64,000 nt of DNA from Eudorina sp. 2006-703-Eu-15 (taxonomy: Eukaryota > Chlorophyta > Chlorophyceae > Chlamydomonadales > Volvocaceae): contig BDSI01000067.1 of the NCBI GenBank assembly GCA_003117195.1, forward strand, positions 299,680 through 363,679, read 5' to 3'. A program made the position numbers and the translations under genes. This document shows positions 7,729 to 58,181 of this stretch, in pieces. The number at the start of each line of letters is the position of its first letter. The stretch's first letter is position 1. Under the pieces are notes generated by a model that was not told where the DNA came from, ran no database searches, and was given only the letters and a program-made list of their open reading frames with translations.

Positions 7729-7778
<50 letters not shown>

Positions 7779-30338: not shown

Positions 30339-31230
30339 ATGGAAGATCGCGTGCAGCAGTTCCACAACGACGCACAGCGCCCGCGCGACGCAAAAACTCC
30401 CAAGGAGATCGAGCGCCTCCGTAAATTCCTCTTCAAAAATCAAGAGTACAGGTTTACAGAACGCGAACAGTCTCATCTGTTCGGTGCCATTCAGTCTCAC
30501 TACGCCGCGCACTGTGACTTGCCCGATGCGACCGCAAGAGAGCCAGTTTTAGAGCTGGTTGAGGATGCATTGAAAATGCCTTTCACGGTTTTCACATCAA
30601 GTCAAAAAAAAACTTTGCTTAAGTGGCACGCAAAGTTGACGGGCGACGGCGAAGGCTCGGCGAGAGCTGCAGCTACCATCAAACAGGTGGAGTATCAAGT
30701 AATTGACATGAATGAAACATCCATCAGCTGCATGACTGACGACGGCGATGTGGTCGAGGTCGAGGTTTCAAGCAGCGACACGAGTGTCATCAAGCAGGTG
30801 AGAAGGGTTGAGGCAGACCGCAGACCGCAGATGTCCCCGACCCGAGCCTGTTGGGTTCGACAGCTGCTGTACTCTCGTCCAGACCATTCGGTTCGGTGCA
30901 AGGCTTTGCCACCCTGAACCACCGGATGGGTCTACAAACGCTACGGAGCACTCTATGAGATTAAATTACCATTCGCAGTCCGCTGATTGGTGACGTCAGG
31001 GGTTGGGTACGTCTGCATGATAGGCTAAGCCGCTGTCCTGTGCCATACCCTCACGTACCCTCCCAGCTCCCACCCTCAGCGACGCGCTCATCCTGTCGTC
31101 GTTTCTGACACCGCGATTCTGTCCCCAATTGCAGCTCCGCGACAAATTCGACGCGGGTGCATCCATCTCCGTGACGTTGGACCCCGGGCGCAAGACGGTG
31201 CTGTGCATCCGAGCCGAGGACGCGGTCTGA
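30339..31230 (+). CDS. Protein with an eIF5A C-terminal-like (OB-fold) domain
   Basis: Two exons, 30339-30797 and 31135-31230, phase-0 GT-AG intron, 184 residues. Residues about 118-180 read VEYQVIDM ... CMTDDGDVVEVEV ... LRDKFDAGASISVTLD. This matches the eIF5A C-terminal OB fold: the EYQ-I-D entry strand, the L-M-DDGD turn, and the FD.G....VT segment. Genuine eIF5A carries an N-terminal SH3-like domain with the hypusinated lysine loop; it is absent here and replaced by a charged helical region (ERLRKFLFKNQEYRFTERE ...) that I do not recognise. The protein therefore cannot be a canonical translation factor and may use the domain for RNA or ribosome binding (inference). The start is the ATG in context ACAATGG. 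The frame is open a further 20 codons to a possible acceptor at 30277-30278, so an upstream exon is possible. TGTAA follows the stop by 75 bases. Confidence 0.65.
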
Positions 31231-33753: not shown

Positions 33754-36700
33754 ATGGCTAAAGCTGCGCTCTTGGGTTTTAGAGGAGGTGGAGGATTGCA
33801 GTTCGTTTGCCTGCTTGCCCTGTTGGGCATGCCGGTGTTCATTTATGGCAGTCCCTATGAGGGCACATCCTGGTACGTCAAAAGTATGCTGAGCGGTCGC
33901 GTGGGCATTCTGGGCCAGTCCGTCCGAGTTCCAAGCAGTGTGTTCGCGAAGTCGGCTTGTCAGCTGATCTACATGGCCAGTCCAGACTGGGCTACATCTC
34001 AAGTGTATGTGGACTTTGGCAGCGCGCCGCCTGAAAAAGGCTGCACGCGGCAAGCATACTTAGTGTATGTAGATGGCTACAACACTCCTGACGGCATCAC
34101 CGGCATCGGCTCCAAGGCGGACGTGCCTTGGGCATCGCTGCTAACTGCGCCAGGAGAGTTCCCAGACCAGAGCGCCAACCCCAGCCCCAGCCCCAGCCCT
34201 AGCAGCGCGCCCGACGCTACCTCGCCGAAAGCCGCACCGTCCTCATCCCGTCAGCCCTCGCCCTCCTCGAACTCCGGAGCCCCTCCGAGGCGGGAGCTCT
34301 CAGCGATCGACATGCCTTTGGACAGGTGCGGTGGCGTGCGATGCCGTGCCATGGTCGCGGCCAGGTCGCGACCCTGACCTGGCGCTTCCCCCCTATTTCC
34401 TTTCTCGCTGCTTTCCGCGTCGCTATCACCCATCTGTCTAACTGCAAATCCATTATTCCTAAATTCATTAACTCATTCATTCATTCATTTCTTCATTGAC
34501 ACATTCATCCTCACCAATCGTTGTGCCCTCGCATCGGTCTGCCCGGGTCCTACGGCTGCCGACGCCGTGTCTGTTTGCGACCGCAGGCAACGGTTCGAAA
34601 CACTGTACGACGGCTTCCGCGACCGTTTGGGCGAGCTGAATGACGTGCTGACGTCGGATGATGACCTGATCCCGGAGGTGGGCGGCCCTCTGTCGTACCC
34701 CATCCTGGCGGCAGGGTACTTCCAGAGGGAAGGTGCCGTACCCAAGAACCCTAGGCCCTACCTGGACTACGTGGAACGGCAGCAGCTGCTGGAGGCCGCC
34801 GGTGGGAAACGGGGAGGGTGGAGAGGGGGAGAGGGGAGGGAGGGCGGAGAGGGCGGGAAGGTAAGGACGGAGGATGAAGGAGGTCTGAGACCGGCCGGTT
34901 ATCGAGACTGGATGTGGGCTGCGAGCGTTACCGGAACCTACTGCGTCGTGGCATTTGGCACCTTGGCCAGCCCGTTAGCACGCGGCACTGTACCTTGGGC
35001 CCCTTGATGGCGCCTTGGTCTGCAAGCTACCGCCACTGCTACCGCCACTGCTACCGCCACTGCTACTGCCACTGCTACTGCCACTACCAATGCCACCTCA
35101 TGCAACGCACTGCGTTACCGGGTTTCTTGTGCGCTGCGCTGGGTTGCTTCGTTTCCCCTGCCCTCCCCTCCTTCCCTCCCCTCCCTTCCCCCCACAGGCC
35201 AGCAGTCCACCACCACGGGGGACCCGCCCGCGGGCACCCTGGCGGGCCCTCTGCGCATCTACTCCCCCATCCCCCAGGAGTGCAGGGACGTGTTGCGCCG
35301 CCACCCCAAGCTCGTCGTGAACGCCTTGGGGATTGGCGGCAGCAGCAGCAACAGCAACAACAGCCGTGGCTTCACCTTGGTCAGCCGGATTGCAGCCGCC
35401 CGAAGCGCCGCTGCCAGCGCGGCTGCTGCTGCTACTGCTGCCGGCGACGACGACGAAGCCAGTGATCTGGGCTCTTTCATGTGGAACCCCTTCATCGGAG
35501 GCGCTCAGGACTCGTGCTTTGTGACGCAGCAGGCGGTGCTGATCTACAACGACTGCCCTGCGCATGCCGCACCCGCACCCGCACCTGCCAGCAGCGGGAC
35601 CCGCGCCAGCGCCGGTGCTGGTGCGGGGGCGGGTGGTGCGGCCGGCAACAGCACCACCCCGCGGTGGTTCAACTGCAGCGAGGCGGCGGGGGACCTGCCG
35701 TCGGAGATCGCTTGTGTGCTGGAGGCGCCGCTGCTGCAGCAGGCGACCCAGATGGCGTACGTACCGGATGAGTCAGATGTACGGGTCATGTTTGTGTACA
35801 AGTCGTACACGAGGTGCGTGAGGGCCAAAGGTGGAATTTCGAGGTCGTCCGGGACAAGGGGGAAGGGGCAGTGGGGGCGGGGGTGAAATTGAGGTGTATC
35901 AAACCCAGCAACGGAATCGGTGTGTGTGGTGGCCCCGCGCAGGTGGGTCAAGGAAGAAACAACTCGTCAGATGTCGTCGCACCGCATTTGGATCCCCTTG
36001 ACAATCAATTAATGTCCCACGGGCAGGATCTCTTCCCTTTCTTCCCTCCCTTTCCGCTGAGTATGTCTGCCAATTTCCGATACGCCTCCCCTTCCCGCTG
36101 CTGCTGCGGACTTGCCCCCCCCCCGGACCCCCCGGACCCCGGACCCTGGACCCCGCCCGCTTGGGTGGTCATCCGAGTGCGCTGCCCGGTGTCCCTCCGC
36201 CGCCCCTGGAAACCCCCCCCGCCCCCGGGGAGTACATGCCCACCCCGCGCCTGTACATGTGTGTGTGGATGGGACAGCATTGTCATACAGGGGGCCCCCA
36301 GTTTCCGTACTAAACCTCGGTTTTGTTAACCCCTTGCCGTACGCCGTCCCCCCACCCTGCCAACCGGCCACCCCTCCGTTCCCCCAGTTGCTACCGGCCC
36401 ACGGCGCAGGCTCTGGGGCAGACGGGTATCCAGGTGCGCTCAGCGGCAGGGAGGGGAAGGGGGCGGGAGGTGTGTGTGGGGGGGGGTGTGTGGTAGGGCG
36501 GGGGAATGAGGGGAAGTAACGATAACCAACGGGGGTCAGGGAGGGGACGAGATAACGGAGAGGCGTACGGGGAAGGCGTGCCGGGCGCCCTTCCAGCGGC
36601 ACCGACGTACTCCACAGGAGGATTAGGGCTGCAGGAGGGGGGGAGGGGGACACGGGTGTCGCTGCCTTAATGACGTGCGGGAGGGGGACACGGGCCCCGG

Positions 36701-39700
36701 AAGCTCCCGGAGGGATGTCTCACACGGCCATAGACGGAGGGGTGTGTAAGGGGCCAGGTGTGGGGCTGGGCGAGTTTGGGCCAGGTCCGGCTGCCCCTCA
36801 GAAACTGAGTGTACGGCTGGTAAGAAAGGAGGTTGTTGCGTTTGGAGGTGCGGACTATCGACAGGACCACGGCGGTTACTCCAACCATGCCTCGAACCGA
36901 ACCGAACCGAACCGCCCTCCGCCCCCCCTTCTCCCCCCGCTTGTCTCCGCCCCGCTCCCCCCCTCTCTCCCCGCCCCGCTCCCCGTCCCCGCAGCTGATT
37001 CTCTTCACGGCGGGCATCATCGTGATCCTGACCTTCACGCTGCTGACCCCCACCTTCTTCCGCCTCTTCATCAGCTTCCCCTGCCGCTGCATCGCCTACG
37101 GCATCAAGTGGGTGGAGCCGCCGGTTGGGTCGGTTGCGTCGGTTGGGTCGGTTGGGTCGGTCGCGTCGGTTGGGTCGGTTGCGTCGGTTGGGAGAAGATC
37201 GTGGGATGCGCGCCGGCATGTCCCTCCCCCTTTCCCCCTCCCGTGTTGCCGTCCGCGACTAGGAAAGCCCCCCACTGCGCTCGGGCGGGGCCTTGGAGGA
37301 CATACGTTGTGATGTCGAAACCCTTGTTTGTATATGAAGAAAACCGAGCCGTATGTGTGTTTCTTAGGCGGGCAGAACAGGAGTGTGTGACATGCGAGGG
37401 GCCGAGTGAGCCGTGTCTGTGTTTGTGTTTGTATTGCCCCCCCCCCTCTCCGCAGGAAGGTGTTCAGCCGCGGCCGGGTGAACGACCTGCCGTTCAAGTC
37501 GGGTCTGCACTCGTACAAGGAGGCCATGCACCCTCGCTGCTACAACCTGCCCGTCATCCGTCAGCTGCTAGGGGCCCGCAAGCACCTGCTGTACGCCATG
37601 TGCACCATCCACTCGGCGGATGGACAGTACCGGGCGCTGCAGGTGGGACCCACCATCGGGGGCGCCGAGGGGTTGGGGGGTGGGGTTGGGTTGGGATGAA
37701 AAAGAAAAACAGTCCAGACACACCCAGCCCGGGTTGGAGCGGGGGAGGGGTTCGGGTCGGATTGTTCTCCCCTCCCCCCCTCCCCCAATGGCCATCGTAT
37801 CGCCGGAGATCCTGCAGTACAGTCGATTCTCCACGGCACCTCGGTTCTCTGGCAGTCAGCGCAGTTTAGATGCCGTATGTCCCCCGATGTGATGTCCTCT
37901 ACCCCACCACCACCCCATGGCCCCGTTGCCGCAAGGGGTTCCCGTTGCGCCCTGGCAAACACACACACCGCGGGCGGGCGGGCGGGCGGGTTTCATTTCT
38001 AAGCACACCCCGTATCGCGTTCGGGCTGATCTGGGCGGGTTCCTCTGAAACGCCCCCACGCGCATGCCTTATACTCAATGTCGTACTATGCCGTACCAAA
38101 ATCCATCCGGACGTCCCCCCTTCACCCGGCCGCCGCCGCCCCGGGGTCTTAGCAGTCGGGCAATCGCCGCAATCCATGTATGTCCTTCAGTTTGCCGTAA
38201 CCTGCCCGCCCCCGGCCCCGCACCCCGGCCCCGCCCCGCACCCCCTGTCCGTTTCCCCCCCGCCCCCGCCCCCCTCAGGTCTCTGTGACCAGCTCCGTGG
38301 CTTTGATGATCTGCATGATGTCCTTCTCCCCCGACATCATCCCCCCCCTGGAGTTCTACATCCCGCCCCTCACCTTCAAGATCGAGCGCATGTCCGGCAG
38401 CCCGCTGTCCTCCGTCTGGTACTTCCTGACCATCCTGGCCTACTCGCTCTACCTGGGCTTCATCGGCTACCTGGCCATGCTCTGCAACTACAACCGGCCC
38501 AGGAACAGGCGGGGCCCGCGACCGCGAATGCGTGCATGCGTGCTTGTGGAACGGACCCGCCTGCGGGCAAGACGTGGGGTTGAGCATGGGGGGCGGTGTG
38601 TTGTATTTAAGCAGGCAGAACAGGAGTGCGTGACCTGCGAGGGGCCAAGTGGCGCCCAATAGTTTGCCCGTATGCGCATGTAATATACCCATTGCCCGAC
38701 CCGTATAATAAACAAAAAGGCTGCGGTGTCGGAAGAACGCTGTCGATTTGGCGCGCTGTTAGTTGTTGTCGCGGCGTCGCGGAAGACGACCAGCTGGTGC
38801 GGGTCGGCTGCCTTGGCCACGCAGACTCACGCCACAATGCCGTGCGTGCGTGCGATCCTCGCGTTTTTACCGCAATGTACCCACCTGCAAGCAAAACGCC
38901 GTGTAGTCAGCACCGCCGAAGACGATCTGGAACGATGCGAAATAACGTAATCATGTGTGCGAGCGAAAGAGCGTGTGCGAGCGAAAGAGCATGGGGGGCG
39001 GTGTGTGTGCGTGTGTGTATGTGCTTCTCCACAAACCCCCTCCATCCTCCCATCTCTCTCGCCTGCCATCCGCCCCGCTCCTCCCTCACCCCTCCCCTCC
39101 TCACCCCTCCCTCCTCACCCCCTATAACTGGGTCCGGTTCTTCCTTAATGAACCTCCCTCCCCTCTCTCCTCCCCCCTGCCTATCCTTCTCTCCTCCCCC
39201 TCCCCCCCTCCCCCTTCCCCTTCCCCTAGGTACTACGTCACCCAGTGCGTCCTGTCCGTGCTGTTCATGCTGGTGCTGGACGCCCTGGTCCTCATGCACG
39301 TCTGCTCCATCCTCGTCTACTGGGACCGCCTGGACCCCGCCTGGCCCTGGCTGCCCATGACCGCCTTCCAGCTGATCAATCTGGCGGTGGCCAATGTACT
39401 GCAGCTCGTCATCCTGTTCAGCCGGGAGGACCGCCGTACGTACCGGCGCCACCAGCAGTACCTGGCCCTCATGGACGAGCTGAAGCTGCGGGAGGCCCAC
39501 CTGGCGCAGGTGCGGGCGGCGCAGCGGGCAGCGGCGGCCCGAAAGAAGCAGGCGGAGGCGGAGGCGGCCGGCTCCGCCGCCGCCGCCGTCGTCGTCACGG
39601 CGGCCGCCGCCGCCGCTGCCGCCCCTGGCGGCAGCGGAGGCGGCAGCGGAGGCGGACTGTCACCGAATGAGTCGGCGACGGGGTCTTCTCTGCGACGTCG

Positions 39701-42700
39701 GGCGACGTTGACGTCCAGGGAGGGTGAGCCGGCCGCTGCTGCCGGAGGCTCCTCCCCATCGGCCTCACCGCAGCAGCAGCAGCAGCCCGCCTCCGAGTCC
39801 CCCACTCGGTCTGAGGGCGAGTTCGATGACCTGGCGACCCTTGGCGGGGGGGACGTCGCCTCCGCCGGTGGTCCGGTGGCGGAGGCGGCGGAGGGCGGCA
39901 GCGGCGGCGGCGGCGGAGGCGGCGGCGGCGGGTCCGGGGGAACGGGCTGGGTCCGTGTCCCGCGGGCGGGGCGGAGCGCCTCAAGTGACAGCTCGTCCTC
40001 GCCGCCCCTGTCGGCCGCCGCCGCCGCTGCTGCCGATGTCGGCGGCGCCGTCGCGGCGGACACGACCACTTCCGCGGCGAGAGGGTTTCCGAGCCGCGGC
40101 CGCCGCGCCGGCGGCAGCGGCAGCAACAGCGGCGCCGGCTCGGACGACAGCAGCAGCGGCGCCGCCGCCGCCGCCGCCGCCGGCGGCGGCGGCAGCAAGC
40201 GCAGCAGCACGGGCGTGGCGGCGGCGGCGGTGGCGCCGCTGCCGGTACCGCCGGCCGCGGCGAGGACGGCATCCTTCGGAGTGGGCTCCTTCGCGGCGGG
40301 GCGCTCCATCTCTTTCGCCAATCTGAGGAGCCTGCGGCGGCGGTGGCGCGAGAAGCAGGCGCCGGGGTGGCTGCTGGCGGCCTGGCACAAGGTGGCGCGG
40401 CCGCTGCGCGAGGACGCGGCGTTCCGCTACCCGGCCTGGCTGCTGGCTGCGCTGCTGGTGTCCGCCTACATGTTGATCTTCACGTACGCCCGGGCCATGT
40501 GCTGGGCACGTGTGATCGGGGAGTGCATGACGGACCCGGCGGAGTGTGTCAACAACAACGTCGCGCGGTGAGGGCGAAGGGGGGCGGGGGCTTGAACCAA
40601 GGGGGTTCACGCGGCGGGGGAGGGGTGGGGGATGAAAAAGAAAAAACCCCAAACCTAGAAACGAAAAAAGGGAGGGGTGTTGGGATTAAATTGAAAGGGA
40701 GGGGTGGGGAGGTTCGGGCGCTGGGGATTAGGACGACACCGTTGGGGTGGTGGTGTAAAGGAAAACTGAGGTGGTAGGGGTGGTGGTGTGTGTTTAATGA
40801 AAAGCCCACCCAGAACCGTCCGGGGTGGTGATGTGTGTGTGTGTGTGTGGAAAAGATAACTGAGATAACTGGGGTGTGTGTGTGTGGGGGGGGGGGGAGG
40901 GGGTGTATATCCTGTGGGGGTAAGGGTGGGGGTAAGGGTGTCAGGGAGGGGGGGGGGACGTACCCCGAAGCCGTAACCCTGTTCCTCTGTTGGCACTCCT
41001 AAGCGCATCACCCGGCGCCCGGCCACCAATTGCCGCCCCATCCCCACCCTCCCGCCCATCCCTCCCCACCCCACCCTCCCCACCCCGTCCCGCAGCTACA
41101 TCGTGTTCACCACCCGGCTGGCGGGCCGCGACTTGCAAGTGCGCGTGCGGGACACCCTGGCCGCAGTGGCCGCCTCGCAGGGCTCCTTGCAGGCGCTGGT
41201 GAACGGAGCCCCGGGGGGGAACGGCACGGTGGGTTGGGTTGGGAGGGGGAAGGAGAGGTGGGGGGTGGGGTGGGGGGAGGTAGTGTGTGTATGGGGGGGA
41301 TGGGAGATGGCTGGATGGGCGGGAATCGCCGGCGCAGGGGCACCGAGGGACGGCAGGGGCCACTGCCCGCCGTCCTGCCACGGGCGGGTGGGGGCATTGG
41401 GAGGTCCTCCGACCTGGTCTTAACGTCTCCTCCTCCCCCTTGGCCCCTTGGGCCCCCCTCAGGGGCCCCTCCTGGACGGCGCCATCGAGGGCCTTGCGGT
41501 CAACCTGACCGACTCGGTGGCGGGGGCGGCCACCGACCAGATCTCGGGGCTGCTGGCCACGGACGTGACCGCACTGCTGAATGACACCCTGGGGCCGGAT
41601 GTGGCGGCCCTGCTGCCCGCGAGTGAGAGGGTGGCGGCCGCGAGTGGGAGGGGGTGAATCAGAAGGCCGGGGGGAGGGAGGGGGGAACGGAGGGGGGGAA
41701 GCGACGGAGCGGGGGTCGGGGTCGGATGGGGGCAGTGGAGGTCAAGGAAGTGGCCCAGGCCATGAAGGGCGGGGCGGCCGCTCTGCAGGGGGCGCTGCTG
41801 AGCCCCTCGGTGCGCCGCTGTCGAGAGGGGGCAACCCAACCCGAGGCAACTCAACCCTCCCCTGGCAACTCAACCCCCCCCCCAATTCGTCTTTGCCATC
41901 GCCCCCGCCCCCCGTTTCCCCCGCAGACCAAACCGCCGCCTTCCAGGCTCGCATGCAGGCGCTGGTGGCCGCCCGGCTGGCGCAGATCAACCTGACCTCC
42001 TTGGTGCAGCCCATGGCTCAGGGGGCGGAGTCGGGCCTCATCCGGGCGCTCAATGCGACCATGACCCAGTTCTTTGGCGTCGTCACCGCCACGTCCGACG
42101 CGTTGTCCTTCTCCATCAACGTGACGAATCAGGTACGGCGGAAAAGCGGTCGTACACGCATATGTACGGCACATGGCTGGGTCGGTGGGAAAGGAGCGGG
42201 CCCCAAAAGGGGGTGTTCGAGGGGCCGCTGGGTGCGTGTTCGGTCCAGAGGGGGGTTGCAATGTGTGTGTGTGTTTAGAATTGCAACCCGCCCGCCCGCC
42301 CGATCCCAGGTGGCAATATACTTACCATAGAACCTGCGAGGAAAAACTTGCCATATGCAGGCGCGCGGACAAGGCAGCCGCGCCACCACCGCAAGGCAAA
42401 TCATACCGCAAATACTAAATACGGAGATGCACGACGCACGCAAACGGATTGGTTACCGACCTGTAAAATTTATGACGAATATATGGTGACGGTCCCCACG
42501 GAAGCAGCGTCGGTCGTCCATCATGCGGGAACGCGGAAGGAAGCAAGTTATGAGGCAAAGCGGAAGGGAGCAAGACAAAATACAGTAACTAGGCAAGGTG
42601 AAAGCAAACAGGATGAAAGCAAACAGGTTACTATGGTGGTGGCGCGGCTACGGGTGAGAATCGCGGAAGGAGGGATTTGTAGGCAGGGACGCGTACGAAC

Positions 42701-45700
42701 GCGGCATGGGTGCACGGTGTGTGTGTGTGTGTGCGTGGGGGGGGGGGGGGGGTAAATTGAAAAAAGAAATAAACGGGGGGGGGGTAAGCGAAGGTGCTCT
42801 GGCCCCGAGGGTTGGAACATGTGCACGTGTGTGGAATGCTGTTCTCACGTTGTGGCCCTGCTGTGCTGTACTGTATCGGATTCCTGGATCTATATCAGCC
42901 ATCGTTGCCTCTCATCGCCCCTTGGCGAGGTGGGGAGGGGGGAGGGGGGAGTTGAAGGGGTATCCTGCGCCGCTGACGTGCGCCGTACCGCCGGCGCCAC
43001 GTGCACCGCCGGCGCCACGTGCACCGCTGACCTGCGCCGTACCCCCCTCCCCCCTCAACCTCCCGGTCCCTCCGTCCGCTGCTGAATCGATCAGCTGGAG
43101 GGCTGGGCCTCGGAGCTGGAGGCCCGGTTCTTCTGGTGCTCGCTGGCGGGCTTCACGTTGGGGCTGCTGCTGGGGCTGTCGTCGCTGGTCCGGGTGGGTG
43201 GGTGGGTGGGTGGCGGGGGACTGGGTGGGGGTTGGGTCGGGCTGGGGGTGGGGGGGATGGGGAGGAGTTGGGGTGGGTGTTACTGCATGACACTGTGCTG
43301 TAAGCCTGTAACGATTACATGAGGTGGTTCGGTACGTGGCAATCGGGTTAGCGCTCCTCCTGTGCGGGGGAAGGGGGGGGCCCGGCGGGGCGGCCACCAC
43401 CACCACGTTGGGTGATTCCTCGCGATTTCGCTGTGGGCGGGATGGGGTGGGCGGAGCGGCAGCCCGGCAGTGCAGAACCTGGCACCTGGCACCTGGGAGC
43501 TGGGAGCTGGGACGGCGGCAGCGGCCGGGGGCTGGTAACCGTGGCTGTGTTGCGCTGTTGCCTTCCTGGCAGAGCTCCCCTCTGAGCTGATCTGGCGGCC
43601 CCCGCTCCCGTCGCCTCTCCCCCATCGCCTCTGGCGCCACGTGCAGACGGCCATCTCCTTCCGCAGTGTGGCGAGGAAGATGCGCCTCGCCCGCATCGCC
43701 CGCCGCGTCCTCGCCACAACGTACGACACGGAGGACGACGGTGGGCGGTGGGCGATGTCGAATTTTCAGTCCATCTACGACGAGGAGGATTCGGTTGTAC
43801 GGCGCTCCGAAACCACGTCCATCACACTGGTGGTGTTCTTTTTCGGAGTGCTGGTGTCCACTGCCATCGTACAGCTGTACGCGGTGCGTGTACGGTACCA
43901 CACGGCGGCTCCCGCTATTTCCTTCCCTTGCCTTCCCTTCCCTCTACCTGACCTGACCTGTCCTGACTCGACAGGACACGATTTGGCGGCTGGCGGCTGG
44001 GTCTGCCAGGTCCGGATGCGTGCCGCCGCCGCCGCGGCAGAGGTTCCGGCGCCTCCCTGTCCTCCATCCCTTCAGCTGACTGACCCGCGGGTCGGTCGTT
44101 TCGGGGCCTCAGGATTTTCCACCCCATCGAAGATGCCGTTGCGCTGTCTCCGAGCTTTGGCAGCCTCCCCCGCCCTGCTGACAAGGCCCCCTCTGCCACC
44201 CCCCCCTCTGCCACCCACCCCTCTGCCACCCACCCCCTCCTCTTCCGGTGTGCAGGTGGGTGTGCTGCTGAGCGCCGGCCTGGCCGTGGTGACCCACCCG
44301 TGGACCTGGACGTGGTTCCTGCCCCGCTACTACATGTGGCTGGTGGCCATCATCATCGGTGTCGTACTCAACAAGGTGCGGGAACAGGGAGGGGGTGGGG
44401 GGAGGTGGGGCGGACGGGTGGCAGGGTCCCGAGGGGAAAGGGCGCACCATGTCGTACGATATGGCGCCGTACCTTACCATATGGCGGGCGTTTGTAGCCC
44501 CCTTTCATACTTGACTTTGACAAACATCTCCCGACTTTGTTGCCCCTCCCTGTTTGATGGACCAGCTATCTGCCGTCCTTGTGAATCCTTGACGCGCTAT
44601 GCCCCGCTTCCATCCAATCCCCCTTCTCTTCCGAGTCTATCGAAAGTGCGGAGAAGGACGCTCCCCCCCTCGGCCGTCTACAGTTTTCCTACACCCTCCC
44701 TTCCTCCCTCCAGCCTGAATACGTCTACCAAGTTCCTATACCCTCCCTCCCTCCCCCCTCCTCTCCCCCCTGCCCCCCCAAGGTGATCTTGATCAGCTTC
44801 ATCGGCGACACCTGGCTCTCCAACGGCAACCACATCTACCGCCCCGCCGCCTGGCTGGCCTTCCTCGTCATCGCCTCCGCCACCAACCTGGTCATCGGTC
44901 TGCTGCTGGCGGTCTACCGCATCGTGCTGCTGCTGCTCATCAGCATCTTCGCACTGGGCAAGCTGGACGTGAGTGCACCTCACCGCCCCCGCCTCCCCCT
45001 GGGGACGCGCCCCGCCGGCCTCAACTCAAGCAACTTTCCCTCCTCCTCCTCCTCCTCCTCCCTCCTCCCTTGTTCGTTTTTACCCTCCCTCCCTCCCCCC
45101 TCCCCCCTCCAAACCCCGCCTCCCCCCAGGTGACAATCTTCACGATGATGGCCAGGCTGGATCTGCCCCACCAGACCTTCCTGGCGGGTCTGCATCTGCA
45201 GGTGGGGGCGGGGGCAGGGGTAGCTGCAAGTGCAGCTGCAGGGGGAGCCAGGGGCAGCTGCCCTATCGGCGACTTTTTGCGGCTTCGCTGTCGTGATTGA
45301 CGTGAGGGGCAGGGGCAGCTGGTGGCGCAAGTGGGCAGGGGGAGGGGAGACGGCGGAAGCAGGAAGTGGTGAGTGCCGTACTGGCGCTTGGTATGTACAT
45401 GGAGTCCACATGGGGGAGGGCCGGTGGCTGGGCAGCTGGGCAGGTGGGTCCCCGGGGAGGTGTGGCTGTCTGGCGCCTGTGCAACCCGTCCCGACCCGAC
45501 CCGACCCGACCCGACCCGACCCGACCCGACCCGACCTGACGCAACCCGACAAGACTGGCCCCACCACTTCCTCCGCCCGGTGCCCGGTCCCCCCTCCCCC
45601 CTCCCCCCCCAGGAGTCCATGTCCCATTTCGATGACCCCATCTACCTGCCGGGTCCGAGGGGCCGAGCCAACCGCCGCTGGAGGAAGATCAAGGAATTTG

Positions 45701-47726
45701 TGAGTGCTGGTACCGCATCTTGCACAGCACCGTCGGGCCGTCCATCCGTCGGGCCGTGGGGCCGTCCGTCGGGCCGTCCATCCGTCGGGCCGTCGGGCCG
45801 TCCGTCGGGCCGTCCATCCGTCGGGCCGTCGGGCCGTCCATCCGTCGGGCCGTCGGGCCGTCCGTCGGGCCGTCCATCCGTCGGGCCGTCGGGCCGTCCA
45901 TCCGTCGGGCCGTCGGGCCGTCCAGGCGTCCGCGACGCTCCACCCTGGAGCGGTCGTCGGCTTGTACCGTCCCTTCCGGCCCCTCTCTGGCCCCTCGGCT
46001 TCCTCCTACCCTCCTCCCTGTCGGCCGGTATGCCGGTGTGCGTACCTCCCTGCCTCGGATTGCACGTGCTCGCCCTACGTGATGCCGTACACGTACCGTT
46101 GGGGCTTGGGGGTGGCCCCTGCGGCGGCGAGGGAGCGCGTGGGTGCGTGGGTGAGCATGGGGGGGGAGGCAATCGGCACCCGTTCGGGTCGCCAACGAAG
46201 TGCGGTGTGACGACGACGACGACGAGGACGACGACCACGTGGAGAGGTGGGGGCGAACACCGGAACTGAGTGCTGCACGAGCTCCAGGACCTACACCGCG
46301 GGCGCGCCAACCCCCTCCTCCCTCTGCCCTTCGGTTGTGCCCGGGTTCGTTTCTGGGTTGGATTTTTCTTTTGTCCCCTCTGCCCTACTCTGCCACGGGC
46401 ACGTTCTCCCAACCCGCCGGGTGTGCCCCTCCTCCTCGTCCCCCCCTCCCCCCCTCTGTGGGACTTAGGTGACCACTCACAAGGCGGCCCGGCTCCGCGA
46501 GCTCGCATTTGGCAAAGAGGGTGAGTCTGGGGCGGGTGGTGTTCAGGGTGTCTGCGGGTCCACCGTTGTCGCTTCGAGGCTGGATGCGTCCCTGTGGATG
46601 GACTGCCGTGGACTGCCCTCCGGCGGACGGAGTTAGCACCGGCCCCCCTTCCTCCCTGTGGGCTGTGTCCCTCCTCCCTCGTGAGAGGAGTGTTTGGGGA
46701 GTGTTTGGGGTGCGGGGGTTGTTTGTGGTTGGTTGGGCAGGTGGGTGGGTGGTGGTCGTTGGGTGTTGGGCGGTGTGTCACAGTCGATGGCCTTCCGACG
46801 GCAAGGTCGGGCCTCGGCCGGGGACGTCTCCTCGGTGGCCCGTCAGGTCTGGGTGGGTGGGTGGGTGGGTGGGTGGGTGGGTGGGTGCCGAGGGGGCCGG
46901 TCCATGTGCGGCCACATCCGACGGCCTGCGCGGGACCCGCCTGGGGCCACCATCCAAGTCCTTCCCGCCCCTACATCCTCCAGTCAGCGCAGCAATGGAC
47001 TTGGTTCCGCAATGGATTGTGCTCATGTTCCCTCCCTTCCCCCTTCCACACACACCCCGGCCCCCTCCCTCCCCCGGCCCCCTCCCTCCCCCCGGCCCCC
47101 TCCCCCGGCCCCCTCCCTCCCCCGGCCCCCTCCCCCGCCCGCAGGCCGCAAGTCGGTCGAGGACCAGGTTCTAGTGGTGGTGCCCGGCCCCGCGTCCTCC
47201 CTGCCGCTGAGCTACGGACCGGGGGGCCCCGCCGGGCCCGGAATCGGCCCCGCGCCGCCGCCGCCCCGCCACCCCCGCCACCCCCGCCGCCCCCGCCACC
47301 CCCGCCACCCCCGCCACCCCCGCCGCGAGCTCCTTGAGCGGCCGACGAGAGTGTGTGTGTGTGTGTGGGGGGGGGGGGGTTGCCTCTGGATGGCGCCCGG
47401 GCGACTCCGCGTCCCCCTTCCCCCCCTTGGGGAGAGCGGGGGCCAGGTTGCAGCGGATATTGCACAGCTTTGTCCTTTGTCCGGAGGGAGGGAGAGGGAG
47501 TTTTGAGGGGTGGCTCGGAGGGGGCCCGAGGGCGACGAGCTGCCTTTTCCGAGAACTCAAGCCGCGGGCAGCGGGAGCGCAAGGGCCCTGGGCGCTGGAG
47601 GGAATCCTTGGACGGCATATCATGGAGGGGAGAGAGAGAGACGTTGACAGAGATGGATTGCCCTATGCGCCCAGCTGCTTCGCGTCCGAGCCCGGGTGGG
47701 GCCGGAGGCCGCGGGGCTTGGGGTAA
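33754..47726 (+). CDS. STRA6/RBP-receptor-like multi-pass membrane protein
   Basis: Joined model: 21 exons, about 1,733 residues: 33754-34325, 34587-34801, 35198-35813, 36388-36433, 36995-37107, 37456-37642, 38279-38508, 39230-40567, 41096-41228, 41463-41622, 41736-41809, 41947-42132, 43095-43193, 43647-43883, 44256-44375, 44783-44968, 45130-45201, 45613-45699, 46469-46520, 47145-47350, 47454-47726. Visible: signal peptide; Ser/Pro- and Ala-rich ectodomain; hydrophobic segments at 36995, 38279, 38410, 39230, 39357 and 40430; a 300-residue Ala/Gly/Ser insert (39550-40300); a glycosylated loop (41096-43120); more membrane segments at 43127, 43820, 44256, 44316, 44835 and 44900. The last part (WL.....VVLNK ... 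NLVIG ... YRIVL ... ALGKLD ... RLDLPHQTFLAGL ... SHFDDP) follows the final membrane helices and juxtamembrane region of STRA6, the vertebrate retinol-uptake receptor. The intron 38509-39229 has a GC donor. The C-terminal tail is His/Arg/Pro-rich. Substrate is unknown; retinoid transport is only a hypothesis. Gene structure is surer than the name. Confidence 0.6.
35018..35096 (+). repeat. 12-bp tandem repeat (CTGCTACCGCCA)
   Basis: Five to six imperfect copies in intron 2 of the STRA6-like gene, between the exons 34587-34801 and 35198-35813. Confidence 0.75.
37110..37195 (+). repeat. GGTTGGGTC/GGTTGCGTC tandem repeat
   Basis: About nine copies of a 9-10 base unit directly after the donor of the exon 36995-37107. 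It stays open in the frame of the exon, giving a false extension of Val-Gly-Ser repeats; splice phase to the next exon shows it is intronic. Confidence 0.7.
37366..37408 (+). repeat. Intronic dispersed repeat, copy 1
   Basis: GGCAGAACAGGAGTGTGTGA and the following GCGAGGGGCC.AGTG recur, nearly identical, at about 38611-38652 in another intron of the same gene. Confidence 0.7.
38509..39229 (+). other. Probable GC-AG intron of the STRA6-like gene
   Basis: The upstream exon ends AACAG and the downstream one opens with G-TAC-TAC after TTCCCCTAG. Frame and phase 2 fit only if the donor is AG|GCGGGG; no GT nearby gives the right phase. GC donors occur naturally at low frequency. Confidence 0.5.
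38611..38652 (+). repeat. Intronic dispersed repeat, copy 2
   Basis: Second copy of the sequence at 37366-37408, in the same orientation and also intronic, preceded by GTATTTAAGCA instead of TTTCTTAGGCG. Confidence 0.7.
45487..45545 (+). repeat. CGACC pentamer microsatellite
   Basis: About ten CGACC/CGACCT units in the intron between exons 45130-45201 and 45613-45699 of the STRA6-like gene. Confidence 0.85.
45731..45927 (+). repeat. Minisatellite of CGTCGGGCCGTCCATC units
   Basis: Nested tandem units built from GTCGGGCC and GTCCATCC fill about 200 bases right after the donor at 45700. The unit boundary varies, as expected from unequal crossing over or slippage. Intronic. Confidence 0.85.
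47351..47453 (+). other. Short GT-repeat intron near the 3' end of the STRA6-like gene
   Basis: Starts in GTGTGTGTGTGT and poly-G and ends in GTTGCAG. Removing it (phase 0) avoids translating the GT run and gives a 90-codon final exon with stop at 47726. Without it the frame would end at 47506. I prefer the spliced form. Confidence 0.45.
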
Positions 47727-51385: not shown

Positions 51386-51442
51386 TGGCGCCACGAAGTA
51401 AACATCGCACTATCACACGGAAATGCGTTATGATTTTCAATT

Positions 51443-54400
51443 ATGGTTCGAGATGGACATAGTGGTCTGGCAGCGGACTCCTTGTGCAGCTTTTCTGTCT
51501 GGATGAGTATTGACAGCCAGGTTACTGGAGTCTGCTCTGGCGACAGGCAGAAGGGGATATCCCCCTTGACATATATTGTCACAGCCATTGCAGTTATTTA
51601 TGTGTACTTGCCTTGGAATGGGAGTTTCGCACAATCGGCCAGCATTGTGCAGCCCGGGACGTGGCTACTCAGCTGCGCAACGCTCCCTGCTGGCACCGCA
51701 ACGCGCTGCGCTGTGCAAGAAAATATCAGCTTCGCCACTCCAGTCCTAGATTCGACGCCTGCCATAATAAGCGTGCCGCTTGTCATTGAGAGCCAGCAGG
51801 ACGAGCAGCAGCAGCTCACGCCAGCAGTCAGCTTTGCTAACGGCGTTGGGCAATTTGTAGTTGCACAAAATGCGACGGTCTCCATTCGTCGTCTGAATCT
51901 GGTGGATGTCCCCCTTGACGGTGGGCCTGTGACGAGCCCGGACGACACATTCCTCATCCCGCTTGCCTTCAGCTTGGAGCCCAGCTCACGGCCGTCCCAG
52001 GGCCAGCAGCAGCAATTGTGCTTGGAGGGCGTTACCATCACCACGTCTTCCACCAACGCCTTGTACTTCCACCAGGCCTTCGCCTGTGATGCCTCGCCGT
52101 CGCCCAACTTCACGGTCACGCCCGACTCCTTGGTCGTACATTCGTACACGTCTCGCAGCCTACGCGCAGTCAATGTGACATTGCGGTGCAGCGCTCCCGC
52201 CGTCGTCCCACACCCCTGCTGGGCCGCATCGGTCAGCAGCGGCGGTGAACTGCTGTCGCTGTTGGAGGCAGCTGCCAATCCCGACCTGGCCCCGGGCATC
52301 AAAGGGAACGTGGAGTTGCTGAGCTTGCCCGTCAAGGTTCTGCTCACAAACAGTTTCGCCCTGAGGGACGCCTGGGGTCAGCGGCCGGCGGCCCCACCGC
52401 AACAGGAGCCCCTCGCACCGCCTGCAGGACAGCTGCTGCCGGTCGCCGCGCCCGCACAGGCAGGGTCTCAGCCTTCCGCCCCACCGGCTGTTCAGCGGCG
52501 GTGGCCAGTCACCCTCTACCCCAGGCCGCTGATACTGTCAGGCGGACCCTGGACGGCCACAGCCGAGAGGCCGACACCGCCGGTCGCACTGGATCTGAGC
52601 GACACGGCCGGAATGTTCTCAATCCCGCGCAGCAGCGGCGGCCGGCTGGAGCTGTGCAACTTGACATTGTTGGACCCACCATTTGGAACCGCTACCCCCA
52701 AGAGCGCCCGCAGGTTGATCCCGCGCACCTGGTTGAAGCTGTTGCTGTGGACGTTCGACACGGGAGATGCCATCTTGACGAAGGATCAGTCGTACAGACT
52801 GGTTCTGAACGGCACCGCAGTGCAGCTTCCGCCGTCTGAGCTGGCGCTATGGCACTGGGATGTGTTGGGCGCTGTTCCCCCCGAGCTGCTGAGCTGCTGG
52901 TGCGCTGCCGGCAACGGAGCGCTGCAACCCGGCACGGGGTATACCTATGCCGAGAACAGCACTGGAGACCCGGCGGTGAGTGATGAACCGAGGCGGCCGG
53001 CGGGCGGGTGGGAGGGGACACCCGACGCCTCCATGCATAGCCGTCCGTCAGCGCATGGTTCCCCGACATCGCCCGTGCGTGAGACGCGGCTGGCAGCAAG
53101 TTTGTCTCCCCAAGTCAGGAGACCATGTTGTCGGTGTCCCGCCATGCTCTCAATGTTGCACGCTGCGGCTGCACACGCTGTTTGCTGTGTGGTGTGTCCG
53201 TTTGGCTGGCTGCAGTGGGGCACTCCGATGCCCGGCGGCAGCCTCCTCGTCCGCGTCATGCGCTCCTTGTTCCGGAATGTGCAGTGGCTGGAGAGGGTCC
53301 TGCTGTTCCCCGGCTCCAGCGCAGACCAGTGCCAGCTGTACGGGCAGCAGCTGCCACCCGAGCCCACCTGCCAGGTGGCGGCCCCCAAGGACAAAACGCC
53401 CCTAATGATCGGCACAATAAACCAGTTTACTGCTGGCCAGATCGACGCCTGCAGTTTCGGGAGCCCCAACATAATCCTAGACTATACCAAAAACAAAACC
53501 ACTGATTACGGCATTTTCGCAATGCTTCAAGATGCGGCCTTGGACACCATGGGAGGCTCGTCGCCCGCCTGCTCGCACCGGTGCACCCAGACGCGAATCC
53601 CCCCGCAGCGGTTTGTGTTGCTGGGGGATCCGCTGGGCCCGCGGCTGCTGCACATGGCATACGCCCAGGCGGCGGTGAACGTGCGGGCGGGCAATGCGAG
53701 CCTCGTACTGCGACAGGCGGTGCTGTCGGGCCTGCCCGCGGCTGGGCTGCACCCCAGCGCGGCAGCGAGGGGGGACGTGGCGGGCCGGAACGCAGCGGCG
53801 GCAGCGTACGGCGATGGCGGATGGCCGTATTTCTTACCGCAGACGACCGTTTCCGACACGACGTGGCCCCCAGCAGGGCCCATAACCAGCAATGCAAGCT
53901 GCATCGGCACCCCGGGGGTGCTGGCAGCCGGGCAGGACCCCACGGGGGGTCTGAGCCCGGCGCTGACCAACTTCACGTCGTGCCTGTGGCCCCTGGACTT
54001 TGACCGCGCGGCGTGGGAGGCGTCATCGTCGTCGTCGTCGTCGTACCGGGTGTTCCTGGACTCCGTGGTGCTGCTGGTGCCGCCGGGGGAGCTGGCGCTG
54101 ATGGCGTGGGCGGTGGCGGAGCGCTTGGCTGCGGGGGCTGCTGCGGCTGCTGCTGTCGCCGATGATGGTGCGGTGGACCCGACACCTGCCGCCATCGGGA
54201 AACATGATTACGAGTTTGTGATGATGCCGGACGGGACCGGAGCGGGCGGCGACAGTGCAGCGCTGCTGCAAACCCTCCGCGCTCTGCCCCAGACCAGCCA
54301 ACTGGTGATGATGTCGGGCGCGGGTGGGGTTGCGGCCACTGCGGCTTCCTTGCAGCGCCTGACCAGCCGACTTTTGGAGATGGAGGCGGTCCGGAGGCGG

Positions 54401-57400
54401 CAGATGACGCAGGGGGAGGAGGCGCAGGTGGCGGCCGACGGCACCGGCAGCAGCGCCTGGTGGCGGCGGGAAACGGACGGGGCGGATGAGGGCAACGGCA
54501 CTGTCATCTCCGGCGGCGGCGGCAGCCGCAGCAACAGCAACAGCTCCCTTCCCGCGGCCTACCTGGCCTTCTCGGTGTTCTCCTGGTGCGGTCTGCGGGG
54601 TCGCAATGTCACCCTGGCCGCGGAGCCGCTGCCGGGGCCTGGCTCCGACATAACGAGCGACCCGCGACTCTGGTCCCGTAAGCCGATGGACATTCCGCTG
54701 CGGCTGGCTCGGCCGGTTGAGGCAGAAACGACAGACCGCAGTGTGGCCCCGCCGTCAGAGCAGCCGGCCAGCAGCCGGCCGTCAGAGCCGCAGGCCAGCA
54801 GCCGGCCGTCAGAGCCGCAGGCCAGCAGCCGGCCGTCAGAGCCGCAGGCCAGCAGCCGGCCGTCAGAGCCGCAGGCCAGCAGCCGGCCGTCAGCCTCCCC
54901 AGGGCCTGCCGAGCAGCCCCCCTCTGGGCAGCCCCCCATTCCCCAGGCACACGAGGACGCCCCTTGGCCGCGCACCGGCACAGGACCCACCACGTCCGCT
55001 TCAGTCGACACGACGCCCTCAGAAGGCCAGGCCGAGGGGGGCCAGGCGGGGATCACCACCACAACAGCACCTGCCAGATTCACAGCGCCGGTTGTCGCGG
55101 GGGCGGTCACAGCGGCCTGCGGGACACTGTGCTTGCTCCTGTGTGTGATGGCCGTGGTGGCGTGGCGCCTGCGCCGGCGGAGGCAGCACCCGAACTCGGC
55201 GCGCTGTGACCCGGAGGCGGGCAGTCCTCCTGGGTGCGGCGCGGACGTCAAGCTGCGGGCCCTGTCCTCCGCAACCCCAACCCAACTCTCGGCGGCGCCG
55301 GACCGGGCACCTTCGTCGAACACAGCGGCGTTAGCATCGGGATCTCCTTCCGAGTGGCGAGGCAGTCCCGCTGCGTCGGGGCCGCAGGGGTCAACCCTGG
55401 TCAGCAAGCCGGCCGCCGCGGCCATGTCCTCCTACCTGTGCGCCATCAGCGCACTCCGGGAGCGAATGATGGCGCCAGATGCGGAGGGGAGGGGACAGCT
55501 GGGGGTGGTCGAGCTGGAACAGCTGGCTGCCGGCGGGCTGCAGTCGAACTACACCTTGTCGAGAGGAGACACCTTCAGCGGGGTGCATAGCAGTGCATCG
55601 GACGTATCCGGGGGGATGCGGCGCCGGGGCCCAGCAGCTGGTTCCGCTGCAGGCGGCACCATCAGCAGTCTCACGGGGCCCATCAGTGCCGGCGGGTCGG
55701 AGCTGGTGTTGCTGGGGGAGCTGGGCCGCGGGGCGCAGGGGGTGGTGTACCGCGGGATGTGGCGCGAGCTGGAGGTTGCGGTCAAGAGCGTGCTGTTCCA
55801 ACAGGTGAGCAGAGGGGGCGGAGAGGGGCCGGCGGCATTTGCAATCAATCAGTTGACTGTCGTACACAAATAACAAATAAGCCTGGGTGTGAGCGGCAGT
55901 CAGTCTCCAGATCGTTGGTGGACCTCATCGCTCTCGCCCCCCGCCCCGGCTCACTACGTGTCGCCATCGGATGGGTCTGTGCTTTGTTGCCCCGCCCGGA
56001 CCGCTGCCGTGCCAGAGTGCGGGTCAACCCCGCTCGCACAGCCCAGTGCAGGAGGCCGCCATCGCTGCCGCCCTTGATCACCCCAATGTGGTCGTCACCT
56101 ACACTCACCAGCTGGACCGCCTGGAGACGCCGATGCCGAGCCCAGCAAAGCCCAAGACCCCAACCCCGCAAAAGGAGTTCTCCGAGGAAGCTGGAAATCC
56201 GACGTCATCCGATGTCCAGGCGCAGTCGCCGTCGGCGCAGCAACAGGACGCCGCCGGGACTTCCACGGCACCGACACCCCAGCCCCAACCACACATCAAG
56301 GGGGCCTCAAAGCAGCAGCCGCAGTCTGGAACAGACGACTGTTCAGCGCAGATGTGGAAACCCCCAGCATCAGGGTCCGACGGCGGACGGCGGACAACAT
56401 CCTCCTCCAGCAGCAGCGCGGCTGTCAGCAGCAGCGCCGAGACGGTGGTGTGGCGTCTGACCCTGATCCAGGAGCTGTGCAGCGGGGGCAGCCTTCGCCA
56501 CTGCCTGGACACCGGGCTGCTTGCGGGGTGCAGCCTGGGGATGGGAGCCGAGTGCGATAGGGAACTGGGCAACTCCTCCAGAGGTTCGACCCTCGCGCGC
56601 CACCAGCACCAGCAGCACCAGCAGCACCAGCACCAGCAGTCTGAAGCCCCCAACGAGCTGCGGCCGCAAGCGCCCTCCACCACCAGGAGCACCTCCCCAC
56701 CGACACCCGCGGATCACTTCTGCACTGGCAGCACCAGTGGCAGCACCAGTGGCAGCAGCAGCAGCCGCATCACCGCCCAGCCGGACGGCCCGCGTGCTTT
56801 GCCGGCAGCCCACGCACCGCCCGCCGGCAGCCCGCCACACCCAGCCTCCTCCACCCCGCCCGGCGCCCCGGCGCCCTCCCCGGCCCCGGCGGTGGCCCTG
56901 GCGGTGGCCCTGCAGGTGGCCCGCGGCATGGAGTACCTGCACTCCAGGGGGGTGCTGCACGGCGACCTCTCCTCCGCCAACGTGCTGCTGCAGAGCTGCC
57001 GCAAGCCGCCTGGGCTTTCGTCTCCCCACGCATCCTCATCAGCAGCCCCAGGACCGTCGGGCGCGCCGCCGGCATCTCATCGGACTGGGACGACGCACGA
57101 CGTGCAGCATTACTGGAGCAAGCTCATGGTCATCAAGGCCCCGCCGCCGCCGCCTCCCGTCATCGCTACATCACCCGGCAGCGGTGCGACCTCTTCCAGT
57201 GGGGGCAGCTGCCCTCCGGGCGCCAGGGCTGGCCGGCAGGAAGCAGCGGCGGGCGACAGCAGCAGGCCGTTGGGCAGCTCAGAGGGGCGCGGCCGCGTTT
57301 CCACCGCGGCCGGCCTGGGCTGGATCTCACACCACGGGTGCCTGTACGGATATGGCTACGTCGCCAAGGTGGCGGATTTTGGGCTCAGTGGTCGGCTGGA

Positions 57401-58181
57401 CGGCAGCGCAACGCACTTCAGCGGAGATGCAAGGTGGGAGGGGGGCGTGTGGCAGGATGAAGGGGGCACGGGGCGTGTGGGCATGTGGAGGAGCAGGTTG
57501 CGGGCGCCGGGGCCGTTGATTCCACCGTCCGCCCGGGCCGTTATCGATAGGCGGCTCAACGCTGCTGCGTGTGCCACTGTGCATGGCATGAACAGCTAGC
57601 ATATCTGGCTTGCTGACTCCTAAATGCCAGGGGCTATTTGTGTCAGGACCCCGGTTATTCGTCCCTTCCGACCTCCGTTAGCTCCCTTTGTCCTTCTTTC
57701 AGTCCGAGGTCCTTCCAATCATCGGGTCCACTGCCCCTCGTGGGCCTTGGCACCCCCTTGACCCACACACAGGCACTCGTCGCTATACAGCGCCCCAGAG
57801 CTCATTCTGTACGGCACCAGCAACAAGGGTACGGATGTGTACGCTTTCGCCGTACTGATGTACGAGCTAGTCGTGGGCAAATCGCTTGCAGCGCTGCTTC
57901 AGGACGCCCAGCTGGGACCCGAGCTACGGAGCTGGATGCGGCAGCAGCTGCTGATTGCCAGGGCGGCGGGCGGCGCGCAAGCGGATGTGGAGGCGATGGG
58001 GAGGGCGGCGCTGCCGCCCTCGCTGCTGGTGTGGCCTGATCAAGCTCCCCCGGGCATCGCGGCCCTGGCGGCGGAGTGCCTGGCCGCGGACCCCGCTGCG
58101 AGGCCGACCTTCGCGGCCGTCATCACCCGCCTGCAACAGCTGATGGAGTCGTTGCCAGTGCCGCGGTCGCCGTCTGAGTGA
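51443..58181 (+). CDS. Receptor-like protein kinase (TKL type) with large ectodomain
   Basis: Four exons: 51443-52975, 53216-55804, 56052-57433, 57773-58181; introns of 240, 247 and 339 bases (phases 0, 0, 2); about 1,970 residues. A hydrophobic segment ISPLTYIVTAIAVIYVYL (residues about 40-57; a later in-frame ATG at residue 22 is also possible) targets the protein to the membrane. A large ectodomain with N-glycosylation sites and beta-helix-like strands follows, then a Ser/Pro-rich minisatellite stalk, one TM (VVAGAVTAACGTLCLLLCVM) with the basic stop RLRRRR, and the kinase: glycine loop GELGRGAQGVVYRG, lysine in EVAVKSV, catalytic loop HGDLSSANVLL, DFG, SAPE, and the F-helix region DVYAFAVLMYEL. 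The conserved HRD arginine is Gly, and Lys of HRDLK is Ser. Long low-complexity inserts interrupt the N-lobe/C-lobe region (56110-56440 and 56580-56880) and the segment before DFG. The first intron has no stop and a length divisible by three, so retention would keep frame. Confidence 0.85.
54763..54890 (+). repeat. 27-bp coding minisatellite (SSRPSEPQA repeats)
   Basis: About five near-identical 27-base units in frame encode a Ser/Pro/Glu-rich stalk between the ectodomain and the membrane helix of the receptor kinase. Whole-codon units keep the frame when copy number changes. Confidence 0.9.
55693..58160 (+). other. Protein kinase domain, split over three exons
   Basis: Exon 2 ends after the catalytic lysine (VKSVLFQQ), exon 3 opens at the C-helix glutamate (EAAIAAALDHPNVV) and runs through DFG, and exon 4 begins just before the APE motif. 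Conserved Gly-loop, Lys, Asp, Asn and DFG residues are present; HRD reads HGD, which usually means a non-RD kinase. Confidence 0.85.

Follow-up and report, generated by a model that had tools for sequence, protein, structure and literature searches.

The window, a stretch of 64,000 nucleotides from the volvocine alga Eudorina sp. 2006-703-Eu-15 (contig BDSI01000067.1, positions 299,680 to 363,679), carries a gene for a large membrane protein. From TM8 to the juxtamembrane stretch, the final ∼150 residues of its membrane part are, judged from sequence, probably remotely homologous to STRA6. STRA6 is the animal receptor for vitamin A uptake, in which RBP is bound between TM6 and TM7. The best explanation, which we hold to be reasonably probable, is that the gene encodes a protein of the secretory pathway, probably of the plasma membrane, and that its membrane core is a remote STRA6 homologue with a lipophile-handling mechanism. 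We infer a common ancestry with STRA6, the fold, the location in the cell, and transport; the gene model, the sequence comparisons, and the aligned residues are set out below.

The gene reads on the + strand from 33754 to 47506 as an open reading frame of 19 exons, joined by splice sites and reading frame, with a predicted product of 1,676 amino acids. Seventeen of its 18 introns are of the GT-AG type and one is GC-AG; the GC-AG intron (38509-39229) separates exons 7 and 8. The last exon (47145-47506) and the stop are the least certain parts of the model, for which no supporting relative was found. The exons are as follows.

Exons 1-5, + strand: 33754-34325, 34587-34801, 35198-35813, 36388-36433, 36995-37107
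Exons 6-10, + strand: 37456-37642, 38279-38508, 39230-40567, 41096-41228, 41463-41622
Exons 11-15, + strand: 41927-42132, 43095-43193, 43647-43883, 44256-44375, 44783-44968
Exons 16-19, + strand: 45130-45201, 45613-45699, 46469-46520, 47145-47506

The earlier note had listed NLVIG, YRIVL, ALGKLD, RLDLPHQTFLAGL, and SHFDDP in this order, and the + strand indeed encodes them as described. Its five consecutive exons between 44256 and 45699 are four inside this range (44256-44375, 44783-44968, 45130-45201, and 45613-45699, each preceded by AG and trailed by GT), whereas a fifth (43647-43883, with TM8) lies directly before it. The core of the window protein (loops cut out) shares 64% identity with Volvox carteri VOLCADRAFT_105298 (P0001), and its TM8-juxtamembrane segment shares 59-79% identity with six of the seven other algal segments (P0004 was left out of this alignment), which indicates that the coding of this stretch is beyond chance. 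Tandem CGTCGGGCCGTCC-type repeats were spotted by eye at about 45730-45930, in the intron 3′ of exon 17.

Other genes in the window were noted as well. Upstream, a small gene at about 30339-31230 (+ strand; two exons, joined by eye) encodes an unfamiliar N-terminal part followed by a C-terminal OB fold of the eIF5A type (Pfam eIF-5a, E = 1.5e-7). Downstream, a receptor-kinase-like gene occupies 51434-57599 (+ strand). It comprises a long open frame at 51434-55873 that contains a membrane-like segment and resembles a kinase at its end, without a Pfam match at E ≤ 0.01, and kinase pieces at 55893-57596 (PK_Tyr_Ser-Thr, E = 1.2e-10). A 1,595-residue stop-to-stop frame at 5573-10360 (+ strand), rich in Ser, Pro, and Ala and with Arg-Ser repeats, is putatively coding; it has no Pfam match at E ≤ 0.01.

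The protein has at least six relatives, all volvocine (from Volvox, Gonium, and Edaphochlamys), found in three protein database searches. These are P0001, Gonium GPECTOR_1g94, Volvox africanus Vafri_1885 and VaNZ11_009156, V. reticuliferus Vretifemale_20370, and Edaphochlamys HYH03_000514. Each search scored ∼8,000 candidates within length bounds, so that Chlamydomonas reinhardtii, other protists, and animals may still have relatives. Among short-pattern matches in prokaryote and viral contigs (206 viral and 121 prokaryote stretches), none was a relative. The P0001 gene model in Volvox carteri is without the TM7 exon. Databases label the relatives as hypothetical, uncharacterized, TRP, or polycystin; the UniRef names of P0001 (‘TRP C-terminal do’) and P0005 (‘Polycystin cation channel PKD1/PKD’) are without Pfam support, and both proteins are possibly misnamed.

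In the alga's own genome (181 Mb, 3,033 contigs; the window is C67:299680-363679), the family has one clear paralogue, on contig C35 at 964500-984300. Across the genome, the Gonium protein gives 21 exon matches, of which 20 fall on C67 or C35; the remaining one, on C60, has E = 0.005 and two stops. By identity, the C35 copy groups with Gonium GPECTOR_1g94 and the V. reticuliferus protein, and the window gene with VOLCADRAFT_105298. Because the C35 paralogue is closer to the Gonium and V. reticuliferus proteins, the family probably consists of two old copies in volvocine algae.

The predicted protein is organized as follows, with the inside and outside assignments inferred from charge and glycosylation sites.

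33787-33843, + strand: signal-peptide-like hydrophobic stretch (hydropathy)
33844-36427, + strand: N-terminal part of ∼450 residues with cysteines, presumed extracellular
36428-39419, + strand: TM1-TM5, five hydrophobic segments (hydropathy)
39420-40433, + strand: presumed cytosolic loop of ∼338 residues, basic at its start, then of low complexity
40422-40490, + strand: FRYPAW motif and TM6 (Pro codon 40431-40433)
40491-43133, + strand: presumed extracellular TM6-TM7 loop of ∼205 residues with seven N-x-S/T sites
43134-43190, + strand: TM7 (hydropathy)
43821-43877, + strand: TM8, where the STRA6-alignable stretch begins
44256-44968, + strand: hydrophobic segments aligned to the last STRA6 membrane segments, LVAIIIGVVLNKVILISFI and PAAWLAF...LLLLISIFAL (two exons)
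44918-44920, + strand: Arg1470, aligned with zebrafish STRA6 R511
45160-45162, + strand: Asp1497, aligned with zebrafish STRA6 D539
45616-45627, + strand: SMSH, paired in the alignment with SQSH in the juxtamembrane stretch of STRA6, equally far from the Asp
45649-45699, + strand: PGPRGRANRRWRKIKEF, basic stretch, a candidate calmodulin site (lead only)

The N-terminal ∼450 residues gave only a chance-level match (E = 2) in the Pfam scan and hence no known family. The TM7-TM8 loop contains 11 basic residues, and TM8 is followed by three further hydrophobic windows, the conserved juxtamembrane stretch, and the basic tail. STRA6 is a protein with an intramembrane helix in addition to nine transmembrane ones. 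The same hydropathy script yields 13 hydrophobic windows for the window protein, 12 for zebrafish STRA6, and 11 for human STRA6. In zebrafish STRA6, five windows are followed by a basic loop (67 residues), TM6, a loop of 48 residues, TM7, and another basic loop; two adjacent windows (391-409 and 414-432) come next, and then three windows preceded by loops of 18, 14, and 4 residues, respectively. The window protein has its hydrophobic segments in a similar order, provided that one disregards its signal peptide and an Ala run and treats zebrafish windows 391-409 and 414-432 as a single TM8. Human STRA6 is without two of the zebrafish windows and has one additional window in the TM6-TM7 loop; relatives P0005 and P0006 also have extra hydrophobic windows.

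We aligned the TM8-juxtamembrane segment of the window directly with STRA6. It reaches a score of 98 with both zebrafish STRA6 (39 identities over 141 aligned residues) and human STRA6 (39 over 137), a score attained by none of 2,000 local shuffles that keep hydropathy in either case (maxima 86 and 93, respectively). Against zebrafish STRA6, none of 500 shuffles reaches the score of five relatives, and two of 500 reach that of P0003; against human STRA6, the corresponding counts for P0001 to P0006 are 1, 0, 4, 5, 6, and 0 of 500. As a further control, we took from three 50-kb stretches of E. coli all frames of at least 180 residues with at least four hydrophobic windows, starting at the first Met. 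The best of these 24 multi-pass frames scores 64 in the comparison with the window segment (98 for STRA6). All seven algal segments beat the best E. coli frame when compared with zebrafish STRA6 (90-98 versus 63-70), whereas with human STRA6 one ties with it and two exceed it by 1-2 points.

Profile comparison points the same way in part. With hhalign, the algal C-terminal and core profiles score 32.9 and 40.3, respectively, against a two-row STRA6 alignment, and these alignments fall on the end of the STRA6 membrane part (78 columns). The maxima for 300 column-shuffled decoys are 24.95 and 32.57, reversed profiles score 22.1 and 21.4, and none of the 24 E. coli frames exceeds 18.7 and 21.7. 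Taken singly, zebrafish STRA6 scores 34.1 and 41.4, and human STRA6 24.2 and 25.0. A two-row STRA6 HMM fails to separate the algal cores from shuffles, the top hit being a shuffle at 11.2 bits (P0006 9.9, window 8.3), and in the reverse test the algal HMM fails to set STRA6 apart from shuffles. The more N-terminal blocks give no signal of their own: for TM1-5, TM6, and TM7 alone, 44, 209, and 23 of 300 shuffles reach the score with zebrafish STRA6, and 92, 72, and 42 of 300 that with human STRA6. PDB sequence searches with the single core, a five-row profile, and the window TM8-juxtamembrane segment did not list 5sy1 among their matches; the last returned weak matches to 1t06 and 3zbo (E = 0.93 and 0.97) over 50 residues.

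The earlier note had proposed an HMM search against the RBP_receptor family (Pfam PF14752). For the 176-residue TM8-juxtamembrane segment of the window, no family other than RBP_receptor appears at E ≤ 10; the match covers profile positions 431-531 with 15.7 bits and E = 0.0062. RBP_receptor is also the best Pfam family for all eight algal TM8-juxtamembrane segments (E 0.0062 to 4.5). The algal matches all lie inside profile positions 384-531, most of them starting at 384-390 (the window at 431 and P0001 at 467), and the corresponding human STRA6 piece lies at 393-537. Local shuffling of the window, P0001, and P0006 segments, 12 times each, produced no RBP_receptor match in 36 cases, the best E-value to any family being 0.051. 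That RBP_receptor should rank top among 24,736 models seems unlikely by chance, because the earlier note had named this family before any testing. The curated RBP_receptor cut-off of 25 bits is missed by all algal segments, and because the best of them reaches only 15.7 bits, we do not file the window protein as a Pfam member; it is probably just a distant STRA6 relative.

The E-values have to be read beside those seen at chance level, which include 0.0065 for human STRA6 with DUF443 and 0.05 for an algal piece with Sema4F_C. A longer window piece of 433 residues matches RBP_receptor with E = 0.31, and the Pfam scan of the 882-residue window core gives no RBP_receptor match. Among the six full-length relatives, three match the family (best E 0.018, P0001), and in two longer algal pieces Sema4F_C ranks above it (0.47 versus 0.51 and 0.05 versus 2.2). 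Searching the alga's own genome with PF14752 gave no candidates, and 14 control genomes were equally empty, so this test is uninformative. A solute carrier screen dropped matches confined to RBP_receptor positions >400 as non-membrane (PMC9333335). Profile positions 393-537 correspond in human STRA6 to residues of about 439-583, and because that region contains three hydrophobic windows, we set this rule aside.

The aligned stretch includes residues with a proposed role in STRA6. A modeling study of cryo-EM data describes an R511-D539 salt bridge (JML-IM) that stabilizes the retinol site of STRA6 (PMC5954442). In the chain numbering of zebrafish STRA6, R511 lies in GIWRVV and D539 in AFDPGY. 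All eight algal sequences have aligned counterparts, the Arg in [YF]RI[VI] and the Asp in [LM]DL[PA]H, which may likewise form a bridge. The Arg and the Asp are 27 residues apart in the algae and 28 in zebrafish STRA6. Counted from the Asp, position +10 is L and positions +15 to +18 read S-x-S-H in both zebrafish STRA6 and the window protein, so the D-x9-L-x4-S-x-S-H spacing is identical in the two; S-x-S-H varies in the other algal sequences, and P0002 stops short of the motif. In TM6, the proline of RYP[AS]W, kept in all seven algal sequences that have the block, aligns with residue 293 of human STRA6, a proline in the human sequence used here, in a block whose alignment is weak by itself. 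P293L is among five human STRA6 disease mutations listed in PMC4177561.

For the basic tail, PMC7154012 describes a calmodulin-binding peptide of STRA6, CaMBP2, which looks alike by eye (RGRA, RARAH). In the shuffle test of the window tail, 536 (zebrafish) and 233 (human) of 1,000 shuffles reach the similarity score, and for the tails of P0001, P0003, and P0006 between 8 and 811 of 1,000 do so. The calmodulin-site likeness of the window tail failed this test, and a calmodulin site there is at most a lead.

Taken with these results, the STRA6 homology raised by the earlier note stands as a remote one: the algal TM8-juxtamembrane stretch aligns with STRA6's own TM8-juxtamembrane stretch above several controls and keeps the R-D pair, but it misses the Pfam cut-off. 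The likeness to STRA6 (zebrafish, 5SY1; human) extends to the TM8-intramembrane-juxtamembrane sequence, the similar order of hydrophobic segments, and the presence of a loop between TM6 and TM7. In contrast, only ∼140 residues are alignable, at about 28% identity; the window protein possesses an extra N-terminal part of ∼450 residues that has no counterpart in STRA6, and its loops are far longer (TM5-6, 338 residues versus 67 in zebrafish; TM6-7, 205 versus 48). By its sequence, the window protein is not an RBP receptor, because the RBP-binding loop is not recognizable: the TM6-7 loop falls outside the STRA6 alignments, divergence beyond recognition being conceivable. RBPR2/STRA6L, the second vertebrate RBP receptor, is described as STRA6-like, with 9-11 transmembrane domains (PMC11050646). 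One paper states that STRA6 is animal-specific (PMC5977736), and among the matches listed in searches of open-licence PubMed Central papers there was no report of algal STRA6 relatives.

Structure prediction adds little to either side. Two AlphaFold2 runs, each with six whole sequences (P0002 first or P0003 first), gave models with a mean pLDDT of 38.7 and 47.8. In fold searches with these low-pLDDT models, VIA-align gave mainly matches to residues 1-85 and Foldseek returned one match (E = 9.6); STRA6 is in neither list, and the models are too poor for this to be evidence either way.

Could the resemblance be generic, with hydrophobic helices alike in composition and a handful of common motifs but no common descent, in a volvocine membrane protein whose fold need not be that of STRA6? 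In favor of this are the missed Pfam cut-off, the PDB sequence searches without a STRA6 match, the two-row HMMs not separated from shuffles, the dissimilar TM1-7 blocks, and the AlphaFold2 models without a usable fold. However, the algal sequences fit STRA6 in register, in spacing, and in the R-D pair. Whether algal profiles or the window segment are compared, shuffles and E. coli membrane proteins score below STRA6, and RBP_receptor, named before the tests, is best for every real segment and for no shuffle; we therefore consider a generic resemblance quite unlikely. Going by the UniRef names of P0001 and P0005, the protein could instead be a divergent channel of the TRP/polycystin type that carries an outer domain; this appears very improbable. 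Channels of this type can have large extracellular parts, but no TRP or PKD Pfam family appears at E ≤ 10 in the six relatives or the scanned window pieces, with the proviso that the scanner filters drop most matches above about E 0.1 and very weak TRP/PKD matches could escape.

A further alternative accepts the homology to STRA6 and differs in function: the protein would be an adhesion or signaling receptor, in which the core anchors an outer ligand-binding part and couples it to the cytosolic loop. The large outer part, the glycosylation sites, and the ∼338-residue loop are in line with this, and STRA6 itself is discussed as a signaling receptor in PMC12953553. Yet the strongest conservation seen is in the membrane and juxtamembrane region, where the R-D pair of the retinol pocket lies, and a mere anchor would not need this, which leaves this alternative unlikely in our judgment.

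Under the preferred reading, a remote STRA6 homologue with a lipophile-handling core, the algal protein probably handles a lipophilic ligand with outside parts that have been rebuilt relative to STRA6. As proposed for STRA6, an in-membrane pocket for this ligand would be formed by the juxtamembrane loop together with the intramembrane helices, and the conserved Arg-Asp pair would clamp the pocket. The outer parts (the N-terminal part and the TM6-7 loop) may capture the ligand or its carrier, whereas the juxtamembrane helix and the basic tail may regulate ligand release inward. As to the ligand, we would guess at a retinoid or some other apocarotenoid before a sterol.

In the same genome, microbial-type rhodopsins have seven exon matches, spread over five contigs, and the carotenoid-oxygenase family has 32, so a retinoid role of the window protein is possible, and a retinoid ligand is plausible in a rhodopsin-bearing organism. 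No lipocalin match was found in the genome, in a weak test that can miss small domains split by introns.

A more far-reaching reading, which we offer tentatively and regard as rather doubtful, is that the two-gene volvocine family is built on an RBP-free, STRA6-type lipophile-translocating core that moves retinal or another apocarotenoid for the retinal-based photoreceptors of these algae, the core then not being an animal invention. If this were true, RBP binding would be a later animal addition. An algal relative that has the retinol-pocket pair and is without a recognizable RBP loop would separate the old core from the carrier-binding part. In Volvox, an experimentally tractable organism, such a relative would also make it possible to ask how retinal reaches rhodopsins.
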